Source: Verrucomicrobiota bacterium (lineage in GTDB: Bacteria; Verrucomicrobiota; Verrucomicrobiia; Verrucomicrobiales; DEV007). From it: DNA of 64,000 nucleotides. The notes beneath the pieces were generated by a model that made no database searches, was not told the DNA's origin, and saw only the letters and a program-made list of their open reading frames with translations. The position numbers and the translations under genes were made by a program. Numbering within the stretch: the stretch's first letter is position 1; every line of letters starts with the position of its first letter. The stretch covers positions 62,001 to 126,000 of the forward strand of contig JAGWVU010000002.1 in NCBI GenBank assembly GCA_018970725.1. Direction: 5' to 3'. Shown here in pieces: positions 4,143 through 47,642 of this stretch.

Positions 4143-4211
4143 GAGCGTTGCAGGAAGAGGCCCGATCTTAATCGTAACTCCCATATTTGCAATAATTTTA
4201 GAAAAAGAGAT

Positions 4212-4617
4212 GGAACGACCCGTCATAAGCCGGATTCTGTTCCCCGCCGGAGCGGGGCGACGACCATTTATCTATCGGCCGGTCTCCCGTCCGATCCCCG
4301 CCGAAGCGAGGTGCGACTAATACCCGGGGACAGATCGCCGAAGCGAAACCGGACAGGCGGCCCGTTTCCCCTGCTCTGTCTTGCACCGCATGGGGTTTGC
4401 CTTGCCTCCGCCGTTGCCGGACGGAGCGGTGAGCTCTTACCTCGCCATTTCACCCTTACCGGGCCGGAGCCAGGCGGTTTGTTTTCTGTGGCACTTTCCG
4501 TCCACCCCGCATTACACGGGGCGTCCCCGGCTTTTCACCGGGCATGCTGCCTTGTGGTGTCCGGACTTTCCTCTCGCCAAGCCGAAGTTCGACGAGCGAC
4601 CGTCTCGGGGTCGTTCC
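4212..4617 (-). ncRNA. rnpB: RNase P RNA (bacterial type A)
   Basis: About 406 nt, read on the minus strand. The conserved 5' core GAGGAAAGTCCGGAC lies at about 4557-4575 and the 3' core ACAGAATCCGGCTTA at about 4224-4240. The middle includes the GGTAAGGGTGAAATGG and GGTAAGAGCTCACCG signatures. The ends are set by a perfect 10-bp P1 helix: GGAACGACCC (4608-4617) pairs with GGGTCGTTCC (4212-4221). A T-rich stretch (TCTCTTTTTC) follows P1 and probably helps termination. It is the catalytic RNA that processes the 5' end of tRNA precursors. It lies between the epimerase and the ABC ATPase genes. Confidence 0.97.
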
Positions 4618-36914: not shown

Positions 36915-38795
36915 ATGTTCACGTTTCCAAAACCTTACGATGTCGTCGTCATCGGAGCCGGACATGCCGGGATCGAAGCCGCCCTCGCTGCGGCCCGCCT
37001 CGGATGCGCCACGGCCGTCATCTCCCAGAACCTCGATACCATCGGCCAGATGAGCTGCAATCCGGCCATCGGCGGCCTCGCCAAGGGACACATGGTGCGC
37101 GAGATCGATGCCTTGGGCGGCGCCATGGCGCTCAACACGGATGCCACCGCCATCCAATTCCGCATGCTCAACTCCGCCAAGGGACCGAGCGTGCGCGCCC
37201 CGCGGGCCCAGTGCGACAAAAAAGCCTACCAGTTCCGCATGAAATGGCTCCTCGAACACACGGCGAATCTCGACCTCCACCAAGGCAACATCGCCGGGCT
37301 CACCGTGGAGAACGACCGCGTCACCGGAGTTTCCACCAGCCTCGGGGTCGCTTTCCGCGCCCGGGCCGTGATTGTCACCACCGGGACCTTCATGCGCGGG
37401 CTGCTGCACGTCGGACTGCAAAATCAGAGGGGCGGCCGGATGGGCGACGCCATGTCCACCCTCAGCGACGGCCTCCGGGATCTCGGGTTCCACGTGGAAC
37501 GTTTCAAGACCGGCACCCCGGCCCGGCTCAACGGGCGCTCTCTCGATCTCAGCGCTTGCGAACGCCAGGAGGGCGATACCCCGGCCCCCCGTTTCAGCTA
37601 CCTCGCGGATACCCTGAACCGGGATGAGGACGATATCTTCACGCTGAATCCCTGGGGCGATCCGGCCTTCCGCATCCGGCAGATGCCTTGTTGGATCACC
37701 TACACGAACCCGCGCACCCACGACGTGATCCGGGACAATCTCGACAAATCACCGATGTATGCCGGCCGGATCGAGGGAATCGGCCCGCGGTATTGCCCGA
37801 GCATCGAGGACAAGGTGGTGAAGTTTGCCGAGAAAGAACGACACCAGGTCTTTCTCGAGCCCGAAGGCCGCCACACCACCGAATTCTACGTCAACGGCGT
37901 CTCCACGAGTCTGCCCTTCGAGGTCCAGCTCGATTTCCTCCGCTCGATCCAAGGGCTGGAACACTGCGAGATCATCCGCCCGGGATATGCCGTGGAATAC
38001 GATTACTGCGTCCCCACCCAACTCGGCCCGACCCTCGAAACCAAGCGGATCGAGCACCTTTACTTCGCCGGGCAGATCAACGGCACTTCCGGTTACGAGG
38101 AGGCCGCCGGACAAGGCCTCGTCGCCGGAGCCAACGCAGCTCTTAAGTTGCATGGAAAACCCCCGCTCCTCCTGCACCGCTCCCAAGCCTATCTCGGGGT
38201 CATGGTCGATGACCTCGTGACCAAGGGCACCACGGAACCGTATCGCATGTTCACCAGCCGGGCGGAATTCCGCCTCCTCCTGCGACAAGACAACGCCGAC
38301 CTGCGACTCACCCCGCTCGGGGCCTCTTGCGGTCTCGTCGATCCCCTCCGCCAGGCCCGGACGGCACAACGGGCGGCCGATCTGGCCGACGCCTTGCGCC
38401 TTGCGGAGACCGAGCGTTTCGGCGAGGTGACGCTCGGGAAATGGCTGCGCCGCCCGGAATCCTCCTGGCACCGGTTGCCCCCGGAACTGCTGGCGCGTTT
38501 TCCCGGTGAGATCTGGGAGATGGCCGAGATCGACCTGAAATACGAGGGCTATATCCGGCGCCAGGAAGGTGAAGTGGAGCGCACCGCCCGCCTCGAGGAA
38601 AAGACCCTCCCGGGTTGGATCGACTACAACGAAATCAGCGGCCTGAAACGCGAAGCCAAGGCCAAGTTCGGATCCGTTCGCCCCGCCACTCTCGGCCAAG
38701 CCTCTCGCATCGAGGGCATCACCCCGGCCGATATCTCCATCCTCCTTATCTACCTCGAAAAAGGACGTCGCTCCCGCGCCGAACCGGCCGAGTGA
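36915..38795 (+). CDS. mnmG: tRNA uridine-5-carboxymethylaminomethyl modification enzyme MnmG (GidA)
   Basis: A 626-residue FAD enzyme that, with MnmE, modifies wobble U34 of several tRNAs. N-terminal FAD motif DVVVIGAGHAGIEAALAAARLG, then SCNPAIGGLAKGHMVREIDALGG and the RFKTGTPARLNGRS motif. PTQLGPTLETKRIEHLYFAGQINGTSGYEEAAGQGL holds the GidA signature. The C-terminal helical domain ends LIYLEKGRRSR. The start at 36915 is preferred (MFTFPKPYDVVVIG). A parS-like palindrome lies inside it and another directly after its stop. Confidence 0.98.
   Translation: MFTFPKPYDVVVIGAGHAGIEAALAAARLGCATAVISQNLDTIGQMSCNPAIGGLAKGHMVREIDALGGAMALNTDATAIQFRMLNSAKGPSVRAPRAQCDKKAYQFRMKWLLEHTANLDLHQGNIAGLTVENDRVTGVSTSLGVAFRARAVIVTTGTFMRGLLHVGLQNQRGGRMGDAMSTLSDGLRDLGFHVERFKTGTPARLNGRSLDLSACERQEGDTPAPRFSYLADTLNRDEDDIFTLNPWGDPAFRIRQMPCWITYTNPRTHDVIRDNLDKSPMYAGRIEGIGPRYCPSIEDKVVKFAEKERHQVFLEPEGRHTTEFYVNGVSTSLPFEVQLDFLRSIQGLEHCEIIRPGYAVEYDYCVPTQLGPTLETKRIEHLYFAGQINGTSGYEEAAGQGLVAGANAALKLHGKPPLLLHRSQAYLGVMVDDLVTKGTTEPYRMFTSRAEFRLLLRQDNADLRLTPLGASCGLVDPLRQARTAQRAADLADALRLAETERFGEVTLGKWLRRPESSWHRLPPELLARFPGEIWEMAEIDLKYEGYIRRQEGEVERTARLEEKTLPGWIDYNEISGLKREAKAKFGSVRPATLGQASRIEGITPADISILLIYLEKGRRSRAEPAE
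37487..37500. promoter_or_regulatory. parS-like palindrome (site 1, inside mnmG)
   Basis: GTTCCACGTGGAAC, a perfect 14-bp palindrome identical to the ParB-binding core known from other bacteria. It lies inside the mnmG coding sequence and reads Phe-His-Val-Glu in frame. See the finding on the three-site cluster. Confidence 0.7.
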
Positions 38796-38811
38796 TGTTC
38801 CACGTGGAACG
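38796..38811. promoter_or_regulatory. parS-like palindrome (site 2, after mnmG stop)
   Basis: TGTTCCACGTGGAACG starts right after the mnmG TGA and ends just before the convergent HAD gene stop (38812). It matches the 16-bp parS consensus at 15 of 16 positions. It is the only intergenic copy of the three. Confidence 0.75.
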
Positions 38812-39357
38812 TCAGGACTCCACCGGCCCCGGACCAAGCCGCGCTTCCAGGATGCCGTGCACCTCCGCCAAGCTCCGGACCTCGTGGTCCCCGGCCACGC
38901 CCACCGGTTTGAATCCGTTGACCCGGATGGTGTGCGCAACTCCCGCCGCTTGCGCCATCGCCATGTCCCGGTCGGCGTCGCCGATCAACCAGGATCGGCT
39001 CAAGTCCAGCCCCAGATCCCGGACCGCGGCCCATACCATGCCGGGGTCCGGCTTCGGCGGCACCGGATCCCCGGGCAAGCCGGTGTGCACGTAGATGGCG
39101 TCGAAGGCGAGGTCGCCCAAGACCTCTTGCATCCGCCCGTGCAGACCAGCCAACGCCGCCTCACCCAACAGACCCTTGCCGACACACCGTTGGCTGGTGA
39201 CGAGCACCGTGGTGAATCCGCGCCGCTTGATTTCCCCCAACAACGCGAAGAGCCCCGGGGCCCACACCCATTGTTCCCAGGAGAGCACGTAGGGCTGCGG
39301 ATCGGGGTCGATGTTGACCACGCCGTCCCGATCGAAGAAAAAAGCCGGCTGGTTCAT
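38812..39357 (-). CDS. HAD-IIIA family phosphatase (GmhB/HisB-like)
   Basis: A 181-residue HAD hydrolase. Motif I is FFFDRDGVVN (nucleophile D9, acid D11), motif II VTSQRC, and motifs III/IV are KPDPGM and IGDADRDMAMAQAAG. This resembles D-glycero-D-manno-heptose-1,7-bisphosphate phosphatase (GmhB) or the histidinol-phosphatase domain of HisB, but the zinc-loop cysteines of GmhB are not clear, so the substrate is open. The start overlaps the ribD stop (ATGA); a parS-like site lies just past its 3' end. Confidence 0.88.
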   Translation of the reverse strand: MNQPAFFFDRDGVVNIDPDPQPYVLSWEQWVWAPGLFALLGEIKRRGFTTVLVTSQRCVGKGLLGEAALAGLHGRMQEVLGDLAFDAIYVHTGLPGDPVPPKPDPGMVWAAVRDLGLDLSRSWLIGDADRDMAMAQAAGVAHTIRVNGFKPVGVAGDHEVRSLAEVHGILEARLGPGPVES

Positions 39358-40397
39358 GAAGCCTCCCCGGGGTAATCCACCGTCGCCCGATACCGGAGGT
39401 CCGCCCCGAACCAGACGATCTCAGGAGCGGACAACCGCGCGCGGAACCCTTCGCCGGCCACCGCCCGTTCCGGACCGCCTCCAATCACCGGCGCCACGTA
39501 AAACACCACCTCGTCCACCAGGCGCCGTGTGAACGCCTCACCCGACAACCTTCCGCCGCACTCCAAAAGGACGCTGCAAACCCCCTCGGCTCCCAATGCG
39601 TCCAAAACCGGTTCGAGGTGTTCCACGTGGAACACCCGGGTCCGTTCCCGGTGCTCGTCCGTGAAGAGGATCGCGTCCGCCGGAAGCTCGCCCGACCGGG
39701 TGACCACCACCCGCATCGGCTGGGTTCGGCGCAAGGCCTCCGCCCCGCGCAAGGTGAGCCTCGGGTTGTCTTTCCGCACCGTCTCGCCACCCACCAGGAT
39801 GGCGTCCACTTCCCCCCGCAACCGCTGCACATCCAAACGCGCCGCTTCTCCGGTGATCCACCGGGATCCTCCCGGCGCCGGCGTGATCCTTCCGTCCAAG
39901 GTCATCCCCGTTTTGGCCACCACGAAAGGGCGCCCCGTCAGGATGTGCTTCCGGAAAAACCGGATCAGGTCGTCACAGGCGGGGGCCAGAACTCCGGACT
40001 CCACTTCCAGCCCGGCCCGTCGCAAAACCTCAAGCCCGTTCCCCGCATGCCGCGGGTTTGGATCGGTCGATCCCACCACAACCCGTCGCAAGCCCGCCTC
40101 AATCAATGCCTCCACGCACGGAGGGGTCCGTCCCGTGGTGGAACAGGGCTCCAACGTGACATACATCGTCGCCCCGGCCAAGTCCATCCCCCGCGCTTTC
40201 CCGTCGCGCAACGCCCGCACTTCCGCATGAGGCCCCCCCGCCTGCTCGTGATACCCGGTCGAGAGCATCCGGCCGTCCCGCACCAGCACCGCGCCCACCG
40301 GCGGGTTCGGGCTCGTCCGGCCCAAGCCTTTGCGGGCCTCTGCCAACGCGAGCCTCATCCAGACCTCGTCCGTGGAATCTTCTTGGGGCGGTGCCAT
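39354..40397 (-). CDS. ribD: Bifunctional riboflavin deaminase/reductase RibD
   Basis: A 347-residue enzyme of riboflavin synthesis. The N-terminal deaminase domain (residues 1-150) has zinc ligands H57 in GGPHAEVRAL and cysteines in LEPCSTTGRTPPC (C85, C94). The C-terminal reductase domain has the RDIFT-like KTGMTLDGRIT and VGGETVRKDNPRLTLRG motifs and ends in a DFR-like segment. The start at 40397 gives MAPPQEDSTDEVWMRLAL, in line with the family; a longer frame upstream lacks homology. No other rib gene is nearby. Confidence 0.95.
   Translation of the reverse strand: MAPPQEDSTDEVWMRLALAEARKGLGRTSPNPPVGAVLVRDGRMLSTGYHEQAGGPHAEVRALRDGKARGMDLAGATMYVTLEPCSTTGRTPPCVEALIEAGLRRVVVGSTDPNPRHAGNGLEVLRRAGLEVESGVLAPACDDLIRFFRKHILTGRPFVVAKTGMTLDGRITPAPGGSRWITGEAARLDVQRLRGEVDAILVGGETVRKDNPRLTLRGAEALRRTQPMRVVVTRSGELPADAILFTDEHRERTRVFHVEHLEPVLDALGAEGVCSVLLECGGRLSGEAFTRRLVDEVVFYVAPVIGGGPERAVAGEGFRARLSAPEIVWFGADLRYRATVDYPGEAS
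39619..39634. promoter_or_regulatory. parS-like palindrome (site 3, inside ribD)
   Basis: TGTTCCACGTGGAACA, a perfect 16-bp palindrome that extends to 20 bp (39617-39636). It lies inside ribD and codes FHVEH in that frame. This is the best match of the three. Confidence 0.8.
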
Positions 40398-40543
40398 CCC
40401 CGAATCTACTCCCGGCCCACGGACGCGCATCCCGCGATGCACGATTTTCCACCGTACCGGAATCCTTCGCCAATGAAGACGGCCCTCCGGGACACGGAGG
40501 ATCCCAGTTGCCAAGAGCCCGGATGCATCCTCCCATTGGACCC

Positions 40544-41533
40544 ATGCCGCTCTCCCATCGCGAAAAGTTTTTCCTTTACGCCGAACTGACCAAACTGGTC
40601 GCCGCCGGATTCGGGATCGACAAGGCGGCCGAGTTGCTTTCCGGGCAGAATCCCCACGGACGCATCGCCGGATTCGCCCGCGGCATCCTCGCCGGTTTGC
40701 GAAAGGGGTTTTCGTTCGCCGGAGCGGTCGCCCAAGCCAAACCGGAGCCGTCCGGCCTGGAGATCTCCATCCTCCGGGCCACGGAATCCGGCGGGGTGCT
40801 CCCGGAGGGCCTGTGCTACCTGCGCGATGCCTATGAGGCGGAATGGAAACTCTGGCGGACCCTGATCCAACGGTTGCTCTATCCCGCTTTTCTCCTGCAT
40901 TTCGCCGCCCTCGTCCCCGTGATCCCGGCCCTCGTCACCGGTGGGCATTTTCAGGACGGCCTCACCCGCGCCCTCTGGACTCTCGCCGGGGTCTGGGGCT
41001 TCGGACTGGCCCTTGCGCACCTCGGCCGAACCCTCGGAGAGCGCGCGCCGACCGACGAGGCTGCCGACCGCTTCCTGCGCGGACTTCCGGGGATCGGCGG
41101 GGCTTGGAAATTCCTCTGCCTCCAACGCTTCGCCGGGATCTTCCAAGTATACCTCCGCTGCGGCAGCACGTTCTCCGTGGCCCTCGATGGGGCGGGGGAG
41201 GCCACCCAGAGCGCGGTCTTGGCAAACGAGGCCGCCCGCCTCGCCTCTTGCGCCGACGCCGGTGAAGCCATCGGGCCATACCTCCAAACCAGTGGCCTTT
41301 TCCCCCAGGATTTCGCTCGCTCCCTGGCCAATGCCGAACGAATCGGCGGACTCGAGGAGGACCTGGGACGCTGGGCAACCCACTATCGCGAGACCGCCAC
41401 CCAGCGCCTCGAACAGCTCGGGATCTGGCTGCCAAAAGCCGTTTTCGTCCTCGTCGCCCTCTACGTCGGCTGGCAAGTCATCCAGTCTCAATTGGCGATT
41501 TACGGGGAGGTTTTGCAGCAACTCGAAAGATAG
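40544..41533 (+). CDS. Type II secretion/type IV pilus GspF/PilC-like inner membrane protein
   Basis: A 329-residue protein of the T2SSF superfamily. The N-terminal repeat begins [30 protein letters not shown], followed by the typical [13 protein letters not shown]. Membrane spans are at about 115-140, 150-170 and 300-320 ([19 protein letters not shown]). The second T2SSF repeat is [21 protein letters not shown]. The start at 40544 is taken; 40523 adds seven residues. No gsp or pil partner genes are next to it, so it may belong to a split system. It precedes recA by 107 bp. Confidence 0.83.
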
Positions 41534-41566
41534 ATGGAAAATTGTTCAATATTCTACTAGACGCGC

Positions 41567-41595
41567 GAACACGTTCATGCGATGTGTGCAACATC
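41567..41595. promoter_or_regulatory. Inverted repeats upstream of recA
   Basis: Two dyads lie between the GspF-like gene and recA: GAAC-AC-GTTC (41567-41576) and GATGT-GTGCA-ACATC (41581-41595). They are candidate SOS operators. Neither is an exact match to the E. coli CTGT-N8-ACAG or B. subtilis CGAAC-N4-GTTCG boxes. A GAAAG ribosome-binding site is 4 bp before the recA ATG. Confidence 0.4.
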
Positions 41596-41640
41596 TGGTC
41601 AATCCAACTTGCATCCTCAACTTACAACAACGAAAGAATC

Positions 41641-42753
41641 ATGACCGCTGTCATCGAACCTCCAGTCATTCCCACCATCGCACCCATTCCCATGGCGAAT
41701 CCGAAAGTCACTCCGCCTGCGGACGATCCTCATTCCCGGCGCCTTTTCGAAGCCCGGGCCAAAAATCTTGATCTCGCAATCTCGCAGATCCAAAAGGACT
41801 ACGGTGAGGGCGCCATCATGCGTCTCGGCGACGAAAGCCACGCCGACATCGAGGTCATTCCCACCGGCAACGTCCTGATCGATCGCGCCCTCGGCGTCGG
41901 AGGTTTTCCCCGCGGGCGGATCGTTGAGATCTTCGGTCCGGAATCCTCCGGGAAGACCACCCTCACGCTCACCGCCATTGCCCAGGCCCAAAAGGCCGGG
42001 GGACTGGCCGGATTCGTCGATGTCGAACACGCGCTGGATCCGACCTACGCCCGCCAGCTCGGGGTGAACATGGAAGAGCTGCTCGTCTCCCAACCCAGCT
42101 CCGGGGAAGAGGCTCTCCGGATTGTCGAAACCCTCGTGCGCTCCAACGCGCTGGACATCATCGTGCTCGATTCGGTGGCCGCCCTGGTGACCAAGGCGGA
42201 GCTGGAGGGGGAAATCGGGGACACTACCGTCGGGGCCCAGGCCCGCCTCATGAGCGCCGCACTGCGCAAACTCACCGCCATGATCTCCAAGGCGCGGACC
42301 TGCGCGGTCTTCACCAACCAGATCCGGGAGAAAGTCGGCGTGATGTTCGGCAGTCCCGAGACCACTCCGGGCGGCCGCGCCCTCAAGTTTTATGCCTCCA
42401 TCCGGGTGGACATCCGCCGGATCGGCAGCATCAAGAACTCGGACGGCACCGTGACCGGCAGCCGCACCAAAATCAAGGTGGTGAAGAACAAGGTCGCCGC
42501 TCCTTACACGGAGGCGGAGTTCGACATCATGTATGCCGAGGGCATTTCGTCCGTGGGCTCGCTCATCGACCTCGCCTTGGAATATGAGATCATCCAAAAG
42601 CGCGGCAGCTGGTTCAGCTACAAGGGCACCCAGGTCGCCCAAGGTCGGGACGCGGCCAAGGATGCCCTCAAGGCGGACCCCGCGCTCTACGCGGACATCG
42701 AGGAAGCGGTGAAAGCCAAATTGGACGAACTGGCCGCGGGCAAAAAGAAGTGA
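41641..42753 (+). CDS. recA: Recombinase RecA
   Basis: A 370-residue DNA-strand-exchange ATPase. Walker [10 protein letters not shown] is at residues 99-107. Loop motifs include [52 protein letters not shown] and [28 protein letters not shown]. The N-terminus has about 33 extra residues (Pro-rich, [17 protein letters not shown]) before the usual core. The C-terminal tail is Lys-rich (AAGKKK). The ATG at 41641 has a good GAAAG site and starts the frame's real protein. Confidence 0.98.
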
Positions 42754-45527: not shown

Positions 45528-47642
45528 TCAGGGCGACTCGATCCACTGCACGGCATCGATCACGACATAGCCGTCCGCGCCCTCGTTGCGGATCACGACA
45601 GCGGCGGGCACGCCCGGATCGAAGGTGAACTTGCCGAGCAGCGCAAAGGGGCTTTTTTCCGCCAGCGCGAGCCTTTGGTTGAGGGGCTGCGTGGTTTGGC
45701 CTCCGGCGTGTTCGACGGTGACCGAGGCGTTGCTGGCGCGGTTGGCGTTCGGCGGCCAAGCGATCAGCACCTGGTAGGTGCCGGGCTTGGGGAGTTTGGC
45801 TTCGAACCGGGCCGAGGCGGGGCCGGCGCTGTTTTTTCCTTCGTGCCGGTAACCGTGCCCGACGTAGCGCGCCGCGGCACCGCTTTCCTGCCAGGGTCCG
45901 GAGAGAATGGCCTCGTCGTCATCGACCACGAGGCCCGGGAAGCTTCGGGGATCGAGGCCCGGGCGATGCGCTTCGCGGTCGGCGGCGGTGGGCGTGTGAT
46001 GGAGGATCTGGCCCCCGGCCTCCAGTTTGGCGCGCAGGGCAGGGTAGGGGACGTCTTGCACCGTAAGGTTTCCGTCGATGGCCATGACGGCGGCGGTGGC
46101 GGCGCTTTGGGCGAGAATCATGAAAACGGGTTCCATCCGGATGGATCCGAAAGCGATGTGCGAGCTGGAAACGCAGACGGGAACGAGGAGGTTCGGGCAT
46201 TCGCCCCGTTTGGGCACGAGGGCACCGTAAGCGATTTCGTAAGGCCCGCGGGTGGGGACGCCGATATCCCCCTCATTCTGCACGTGACCCTCCGGCGTGA
46301 CATAACGCTGCACGTTGTGGGAATCGATGGTATAGGAACCCATCCCCACGGAGTCCGGGGTGGGCTTCTTTTTGAGCAGTTCCTGCTCGGTCATCACGAA
46401 AGCCCCGATCATGCGCCTCGCCTCACGGATATAGAGTTGGTGGGACCAGTTCCCGTGATCCGTGAATTCATCTTTGGGCAGGCCCCAGCGCTGCATCTCC
46501 GTGCGCACTTCCGCAGGAACACGGGGATCATTGGCGATGAACCAGAGCCAGCCCTTTTGATAGGACTCGTGTTCCCGGATGATTTCGCGGCGTCGTTCGT
46601 AACCGGCCTCCGGGTAATCATGGTTGGAGCCGATGTTGTCGGTGCTGAACGGTCCATGATTGTTGGTGTCCGTTTTGTGATTGGGGAGGGGATCGAACTT
46701 CTCGAACGTCTCCCGCCAGCCCGCCTGGAACACCCGGAAGAGCAATTCGTATTGGGCGGGGTCGTAGTTCTCCGGCTTGGGGAAGGGAATCCGGTTGGCC
46801 GGGTGATCCGTCAGGCACATCCGGAAGCAATAGGCTTGGATCCGCTTGTCTCCGGCGTGCCGTTCCCCTGGAGGCTCGGGCGAGATGCGGGCGAGGAGGC
46901 CGCTGGCGGGGTCCCCGGGGATCTTGTAGGCGCTGACCGGCATTTCCAGCGCGCCGAAGTGATGGCGGTGGTGGAGGATCCCCACCTGGATCCCGTTCCA
47001 TTCCTCTTCGTAAACCTCCCGGCCTTCCCGGCCAACGTGATAGGACACCCCGGCGGCGGCCATGAGATCCCCTTCGTAGGTCGCGTCAATGAACATGCGT
47101 CCGGCAAAACGCCGGCCACTCAGCATCGTGATCTCCCGGATGAGGCCGTTCTCCAAGCGAACCCCTTTCTGTCGGTCCAACCACTCGTCCCGGAAGACCG
47201 GCACCTCGGATTCACGGACGTAGTCCTCGAACACCTTTTCGGCCACGCGCGGTTCGAAGATCCACATGGTGCGCTGGTTCCCGTCGATGGCCGGAGTGCC
47301 CTGGCCTTTGTTCCCGTATTCTTCCGGTTTCTGCCATTTCCAGGTTGTCGGTTTTTGATATTCCTTCCAAACGCGGTGATAGAAATCCCGGGAAAGGCCG
47401 CCGATGACCGCCTTGTTCCCGGTATCGGTCCAACCCAGACCGCCGCTGGAAAGGCCGCCGAGATGGCGGTCGGGCCCCACGAGGACCGCGGTTTTGCCCA
47501 TCCGCCTGGCTTGCACGGCAGCGATGACTCCGGCGGAAGTCCCGCCGTAAACCACCACGTCATAGGTTTCGACGGCGGCGGCGCGGCCGGGTTGCATCAG
47601 GAGAACGAGGCTGAGGAGCGGGGAGAACCAACGGCGTTTCAT
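45528..47642 (-). CDS. Secreted FAD-dependent oxidoreductase with C-terminal golvesin/xanthan-lyase-like domain
   Basis: A 704-residue exported flavoprotein; signal peptide MKRRWFSPLLSLVLLMQPGRAAA. The FAD_oxidored core has YDVVVYGGTSAGVIAAVQARRMG and HLGGLSSGGLGWTD near the N-terminus, and FIDATYEGDLMAAAGV. The last ~130 residues (PGTYQVLIAWPPNANRASNASV, GYVVIDAVQWIE) look like a golvesin/xanthan-lyase-type beta domain. Members are common in PVC bacteria that degrade polysaccharides, and substrates are unknown. The start at 47642 includes a proper signal peptide. Confidence 0.87.
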   Translation of the reverse strand: MKRRWFSPLLSLVLLMQPGRAAAVETYDVVVYGGTSAGVIAAVQARRMGKTAVLVGPDRHLGGLSSGGLGWTDTGNKAVIGGLSRDFYHRVWKEYQKPTTWKWQKPEEYGNKGQGTPAIDGNQRTMWIFEPRVAEKVFEDYVRESEVPVFRDEWLDRQKGVRLENGLIREITMLSGRRFAGRMFIDATYEGDLMAAAGVSYHVGREGREVYEEEWNGIQVGILHHRHHFGALEMPVSAYKIPGDPASGLLARISPEPPGERHAGDKRIQAYCFRMCLTDHPANRIPFPKPENYDPAQYELLFRVFQAGWRETFEKFDPLPNHKTDTNNHGPFSTDNIGSNHDYPEAGYERRREIIREHESYQKGWLWFIANDPRVPAEVRTEMQRWGLPKDEFTDHGNWSHQLYIREARRMIGAFVMTEQELLKKKPTPDSVGMGSYTIDSHNVQRYVTPEGHVQNEGDIGVPTRGPYEIAYGALVPKRGECPNLLVPVCVSSSHIAFGSIRMEPVFMILAQSAATAAVMAIDGNLTVQDVPYPALRAKLEAGGQILHHTPTAADREAHRPGLDPRSFPGLVVDDDEAILSGPWQESGAAARYVGHGYRHEGKNSAGPASARFEAKLPKPGTYQVLIAWPPNANRASNASVTVEHAGGQTTQPLNQRLALAEKSPFALLGKFTFDPGVPAAVVIRNEGADGYVVIDAVQWIESP

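Follow-up and report, generated by a model that had tools for sequence, protein, structure and literature searches.

Predicted parS sites in and around mnmG of a Verrucomicrobiota bacterium and across its phylum

We analyzed a 64,000-nucleotide stretch of the genome of a Verrucomicrobiota bacterium (contig JAGWVU010000002.1; the whole stretch is referred to as "the window"), in which three palindromes lie in and around mnmG, a gene encoding a tRNA-modifying enzyme. They are predicted from their sequence and context to be, very probably, parS, the centromere sites of the ParABS partition system, and we hold with high confidence that they form the chromosomal parS cluster of this bacterium. The sites are rare in the genome, conserved at the DNA level, linked to mnmG in many relatives, and located at the replication origin indicated by guanine-cytosine (GC) skew; the genome encodes one canonical ParB, and ParB and the sites co-occur across genomes. 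By analogy with the established ParABS mechanism, ParB bound to cytidine triphosphate (CTP) would load on the predicted parS sites and spread from them as a clamp, ParA would move the near-origin complex and so segregate it, and the ParB complex would load SMC.

Palindromes at mnmG and their probable cognate ParB

The palindrome GTTCCACGTGGAAC has three perfect matches in the window (at 37487, 38797, and 39620), and no fourth copy was found there even with up to two mismatches tolerated. The initial annotation of this DNA had reported the same three palindromes within 2.1 kb, one perfect to 20 bp and two located within mnmG and ribD, and had considered chance a very unlikely origin; all of this was confirmed. 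Dinucleotide shuffles (n = 100) gave a mean of 0.35 sites and in no case reached three, and chance was rejected for that reason. Compared with TGTTNCACGTGNAACA, the 16-mer parS consensus, sites 1, 2, and 3 have two, one, and zero mismatches respectively, and the 14-mer core is intact in all of them. Site 1 (GGTTCCACGTGGAACG, 37486..37501) lies inside mnmG and is translated within GFHVER (F192-R196), site 2 (TGTTCCACGTGGAACG, 38796..38811) as a 16-mer occupies exactly the 16 bp that separate the mnmG stop codon from a convergent open frame, and site 3 (GGTGTTCCACGTGGAACACC, 39617..39636), located in ribD and translated there as RVFHVEH (minus strand), forms a perfect palindrome of 20 bp.

The source genome is a 4.9-Mb draft of 108 contigs, and the window belongs to a contig of 182.6 kb (C78). 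Exact GTTNCACGTGNAAC occurs only four times in the whole genome, namely at the three window sites, so that three of four lie inside 2.1 kb, and as one GTTTCACGTGAAAC on contig C28. When the 16-mer was allowed two mismatches, 15 places were found vs. seven for the reversed control, with the window cluster as the sole grouping. The genome-wide scatter of such palindromes that the initial annotation had named as a refutation was thus not encountered; the sites are few and clustered near the origin, as expected of parS. The lone GTTTCACGTGAAAC (C28:97438, or L018:9439-9452) is situated within a gene for an EF-hand protein, off the cluster, and could be a parS apart from the others or simply a match by chance.

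In the nearest relative (locus L050, on a contig titled Verrucomicrobia bacterium), MnmG is 89% identical, and three sites occur at the matching places with all 16-mers identical to those of the window. Their 50-bp flanks are only 78% (site 1), 64% (site 2), and 73% (site 3) identical, and the region as a whole shows 76% identity, with 3.0% of its 16-bp windows fully identical. The genome under study has one ParB match, on contig C43, which comprises the domains ParB_N, HTH_ParB, and ParB_C and contains GERRYRA and ENLQRED, which we take to be the CTPase motifs of ParB; a ParB with CTPase, helix-turn-helix, and dimer domains, the probable cognate of the sites, is therefore encoded. Because the 16-mers are identical in the nearest relative despite divergent flanks, and because the genome has one canonical ParB, the window sites are best explained as parS.

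The parB gene (L017:7399-8409) is flanked by an M28 peptidase gene and by a gene whose product has six S1 stretches. No ParA-type Walker motif (KGGxGK[ST]) was found in the 18 kb around it or on C78 among open frames of at least 150 aa (parA was not sought genome-wide), nor was this motif found in 30 loci around the ParB of relatives (L157-L186). The parA/parB pair that the initial annotation proposed to look for was accordingly not found in these regions, and the canonical ParABS arrangement, in which adjacent parA and parB lie near parS and dnaA, was not seen.

Among 29 complete genomes, 27 have both the sites and ParB, and the other two have neither. A second set of 56 genomes was chosen by site status, 22 with and 34 without an exact site. 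In each of the 22 with an exact site, ParB is matched at 1.2e-41 or better; among the 34 without one, the match is absent in 16, weak in nine (at best 1.2e-16, in G361, above the family's cut-off), and strong in nine; these counts do not take kinship into account. Eight of the nine genomes with a strong ParB and no exact site have a one-mismatch site, inside mnmG in six of them (reversed control, zero to two per genome), and the ninth, G376, has neither a one-mismatch site nor an mnmG match. This one-mismatch search covered those nine of the 34 genomes. Clusters of one-mismatch GTTCCATGTGGAAC were observed in G160 (four sites over 16.6 kb on C36) and G091 (two sites 937 bp apart on C26), in neither case on the contig that carries mnmG, and perhaps these are lineages whose centromere left the gene. 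In all six complete genomes of family f9 (G071, G088, G101, G106, G111, and G115), which might be the family of Methylacidiphilum infernorum, a second ParB-like match (TIGR00180) with a longer open frame is present, far from the first.

The co-occurrence also bears on the possibility that the palindromes, with their CACGTG core, are the operator of some other dimeric regulator controlling mnmG and ribD. Many sites are indeed upstream of mnmG, at most 130 bp from its start, as an operator might be, but sites that track ParB in this way and are located at the origin are not readily explained by such a regulator, and their placement deep inside genes would be odd for operators. We therefore regard an operator as improbable.

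Sites within the mnmG reading frame

Homologous loci were compared in a set of 81, consisting of the window and the best 80 of 589 confirmed mnmG loci. The exact 14-mer is present inside mnmG in 66 of them; of the others, five have it only in the -400/+1000 bp surroundings, two have a one-mismatch site inside the gene, one has a one-mismatch site in the flank, and seven have none. Counting sites with at most one mismatch, there are 170 in 261 kb at mnmG vs. nine in the remaining 1.19 Mb of the loci. Among the single-contig genomes of the class, 27 of 29 have one to four sites, each of them GTTCCACGTGGAAC (the reversed pattern matches in six of 29), and every one of the 27 site-bearing genomes has at least one site inside mnmG, including the six complete genomes of group g19, whose sole site is near codon 530. 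An exact site was found in 149 genomes of a phylum-wide sample (n = 240) and in 48 of 58 genomes of a family sample. Of 30 family loci tested, three (L039, L048, and L049) have asymmetric matches with no mnmG beside them, which are probably due to chance. In other classes, among the matches listed (39 genomes, 75 sites), a site internal to mnmG is present in 38 genomes and accounts for 68 sites, the exceptional genome (G345) having no mnmG match; 63 of these mnmG sites fall at a break between profile matches (profile position ~226-232), often in pairs 33 to 135 bp apart.

An alignment made with HMMER against the MnmG/GidA chains of solved structure 9hip, 3cp2, and 3ces (which we assume to be from E. 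coli) shows that the window MnmG carries a 17-residue insertion (residues 235-251, codons 37617..37667, plus strand) that these chains lack. In most of the 81 loci, parS directly follows the insertion and is read as FHVE at residue 252. The window itself is different, as its MnmG reads FRIR at this place without a site, and its sites are instead located at codon 192, directly beyond the stop codon, and within ribD. The protein of the relative L052 was modeled with AlphaFold from an alignment of 29 of the 81 proteins. Between its strands at 216-218 and 259-263, the model has neither a helix of at least four residues nor a strand of at least three, and residues 243-254 are below 50 in the predicted local distance difference test (pLDDT).

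The site is not confined to this loop. It occurs within 300 bp upstream of mnmG in 48 of the 81 loci, near codon 529 in 15, and, in exact form, at codon 192 (the place of site 1 in the window) in six. On a quick tree of the 81 MnmG proteins, the minimum number of changes is at least four for the codon-192 site, at least nine for the loop site, at least seven for the codon-529 site, and at least 13 for the upstream site. Such a tree records turnover and does not separate gain from loss; the changes at codons 192 and 529 nevertheless indicate that the site moves within mnmG.

As the palindrome is so often translated as FHVE, the repeated DNA might be a by-product of a conserved MnmG peptide and not a protein-binding site. 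The peptide is indeed well conserved, with F in the loop column of all 81 proteins and FHV[EK] in 69. However, 63 of these 69 loops carry the exact 14-mer, and the remaining six differ from it by one or two bases, whereas mnmG codon use predicts the four FHVE codons jointly in only ~8.5%. In codon constancy, these codons take the top four places (ranks 0-3) of 364 conserved columns, with values of 0.93-1.00 vs. a median of 0.525; this ranking within the gene is the control that we relied on, and a binomial p-value, which ignores kinship, was set aside. Further, in other classes, 14 of the 68 sites within mnmG are translated in another frame, L122 has a site translated as STWN, and the sites upstream of mnmG, in the intergenic gap, and in ribD lie outside the mnmG frame altogether. 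Since no codons of mnmG vary less at synonymous positions than those for FHVE, and since 14 of 68 sites are in a different frame, it is the DNA and not the peptide that is kept, as under selection on the DNA itself, and peptide conservation, which we rate as very improbable, was rejected on the basis of codon constancy, the other-frame sites, and the near-exact 14-mers.

The three genes at the window sites are mnmG (gidA), encoding the tRNA uridine 5-carboxymethylaminomethyl modification enzyme (36915..38795, plus strand; Pfam GIDA, 2e-159; ~2e-203 against the solved chains), an open frame convergent to it (38812..39357, minus strand), and ribD, encoding a deaminase-reductase (39354..40514, minus strand; Pfam RibD_C, 3.6e-42, and deaminase, 4.2e-22; start codon uncertain). 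The convergent open frame contains FDRDGVV, presumably a HAD-phosphatase motif, and has no Pfam match at 1e-10.

Position relative to the replication origin

On the 182.6-kb contig, cumulative GC skew is lowest at window position 45584, within a flat floor from ~42 to 49 kb; this minimum approximates the replication origin and is ~6 kb from the cluster. The GC-skew switch sought by the initial annotation is thus found, and the data, also those from complete relatives, support its suggestion that the chromosome centromere lies here, close to the origin. In nine complete genomes, GC skew was determined in 10-20 stretches of 20 kb each and fitted with two breakpoints. In six of these genomes, sampling was denser around parS and dnaA; in G238, a stretch was shifted onto parS, which sharpened the fit there; and in G145, one of the 20 stretches was read as N and dropped. 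The least good fits are those of G238 (residual 0.39) and G277 (residual 0.32). The distance from parS to the middle of the origin interval averages 4.9% of half a chromosome (Kolmogorov-Smirnov test, p = 3e-7), while dnaA (mean 45%, p = 0.85) and parB (mean 53%, p = 0.86) appear randomly placed; these tests ignore kinship, and four of the nine genomes are from family f13.

The initial annotation had further reasoned that mnmG is commonly near the origin and parAB, of which the former part agrees with GC skew and the latter does not hold, as parB is on contig C43. Its proposed dnaA check also turned out negative, with dnaA less than 100 kb from parS in just seven of 27 complete relatives. For these distances, genome lengths were rounded to 0.1 Mb in 18 of the 27 genomes, and four of the seven short distances (G071, G101, G106, and G115) cross the record start and hinge on this rounding. 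Two complete genomes, G126 and G081, have dnaA close to the fitted terminus of replication and away from the origin.

Plasmids likewise use ParB and parS, and the sites might thus belong to a mobile element or secondary replicon instead of the chromosome. This is the least tenable of the alternatives and was rejected, as it is contradicted by large single-contig genomes with the sites at their GC-skew origin, by sites inside mnmG of distant relatives, and by housekeeping neighbors (recA, mnmG, ribD, and dehydrogenase E1 and transketolase-type subunits).

On the whole contig, a single DnaA box TTATCCACA was found (C78 position 148127), with no cluster of looser matches, and oriC itself was not located. 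An AT-rich segment (window 41475-41674, GC 0.445) between recA and a gene with a T2SSF domain, on the margin of the skew floor and without a DnaA-box cluster, is a possible origin candidate. A bacterial class A RNase P RNA (window 4210-4615, minus strand; Rfam RF00010, 207.8 bits) is located ~33 kb from the parS cluster.

Interpretation and comparison with known systems

In most site-bearing genomes the predicted parS lies within the mnmG reading frame, where the same bases would serve as codons and as centromere. We consider it likely that the common ancestor of the Verrucomicrobiota fixed the centromere in this frame, that the MnmG insertion has been kept because its DNA is the centromere, and that site-free lineages are mostly ones from which this ParB was lost. 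From then on, the origin would have been marked by parS in mnmG and not by dnaA or parB, and dnaA and parB would have moved freely, in some cases to near the terminus.

Several observations weigh against the assignment as parS or its generality. In the genome under study, parB is not next to the sites, no parA motif is seen beside parB, and the fourth exact site (on C28) stands apart from the cluster. GC skew was sampled in the nine genomes, and in G081 parS is off the skew origin by 377 kb (17.5%), the maximum of the nine. An exact site is lacking from 91 of the 240 genomes of the phylum sample (34 and two of which, in separate sets, were examined further) and from 10 of the 58 family genomes (four of 35 among the good ones), and in G091 and G160 the one-mismatch sites are on a different contig from mnmG. 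Seven of the 81 loci have no site near mnmG, and six of these (L094, L100, L111, L113, L114, and L117) form one clade of the quick tree with 97% support in the Shimodaira-Hasegawa-like approximate likelihood ratio test (SH-aLRT).

If the assignment is correct, parS in mnmG would provide an origin marker that can be read from sequence in a phylum where dnaA misleads, and genome orientation and coverage-based estimates of growth rate could be corrected with it. It would also clearly exemplify DNA that serves as protein code and as centromere at once, with a protein insertion apparently held by the function of its DNA, and would open to experiment how a chromosome manages when its centromere is in a gene that is transcribed and its parB and dnaA are remote from the origin.

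A literature search, judged by titles and the beginnings of abstracts of the matches listed, found no paper on parS in Verrucomicrobiota mnmG, and prior notice is possible; the accessible part of PMC13342612 adds nothing on mnmG. Intragenic parS is already known, and the literature searched yielded no phylum-wide centromere in mnmG at a distance from dnaA and parB. For Methylacidiphilum infernorum, an excerpt uses GC skew to place the origin 250 nt upstream of dnaA (PMC2474590). According to the accessible part of a Hi-C study of the OMM12 gut strains, which include Akkermansia muciniphila YL44, origins were placed by clustered parS and GC skew, and the origin and dnaA are not always together; unlike in the present case, neither mnmG nor an intragenic site is mentioned for YL44 in that part (PMC10197239).

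Pseudomonas aeruginosa, as described in excerpts of PMC4368675, has ten parS sites, nine predicted in coding sequences and four close to oriC, and thus resembles the present system in having intragenic sites and a cluster near oriC; its sites were mutated without protein change. These are, however, ten sites in one species, and a single host gene throughout a phylum is not described in the excerpts. In Thermus thermophilus HB27, as far as the available text of PMC4409726 goes, the parS consensus is TGTTNCACGTGAAACA, and a single chromosomal parS is located inside gidB, immediately upstream of parA, with parAB ~6 kb from oriC and oriC downstream of dnaA. The two systems are similar in that parS lies within a housekeeping gene of the origin region and has the same consensus. 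Unlike gidB beside parA in T. thermophilus HB27, the host gene here is mnmG, with parB elsewhere and dnaA often far from the origin. What is unusual is therefore the placement of the sites, i.e., a predicted centromere in the frame of a tRNA-modifying enzyme in many lineages, with parB and dnaA elsewhere.

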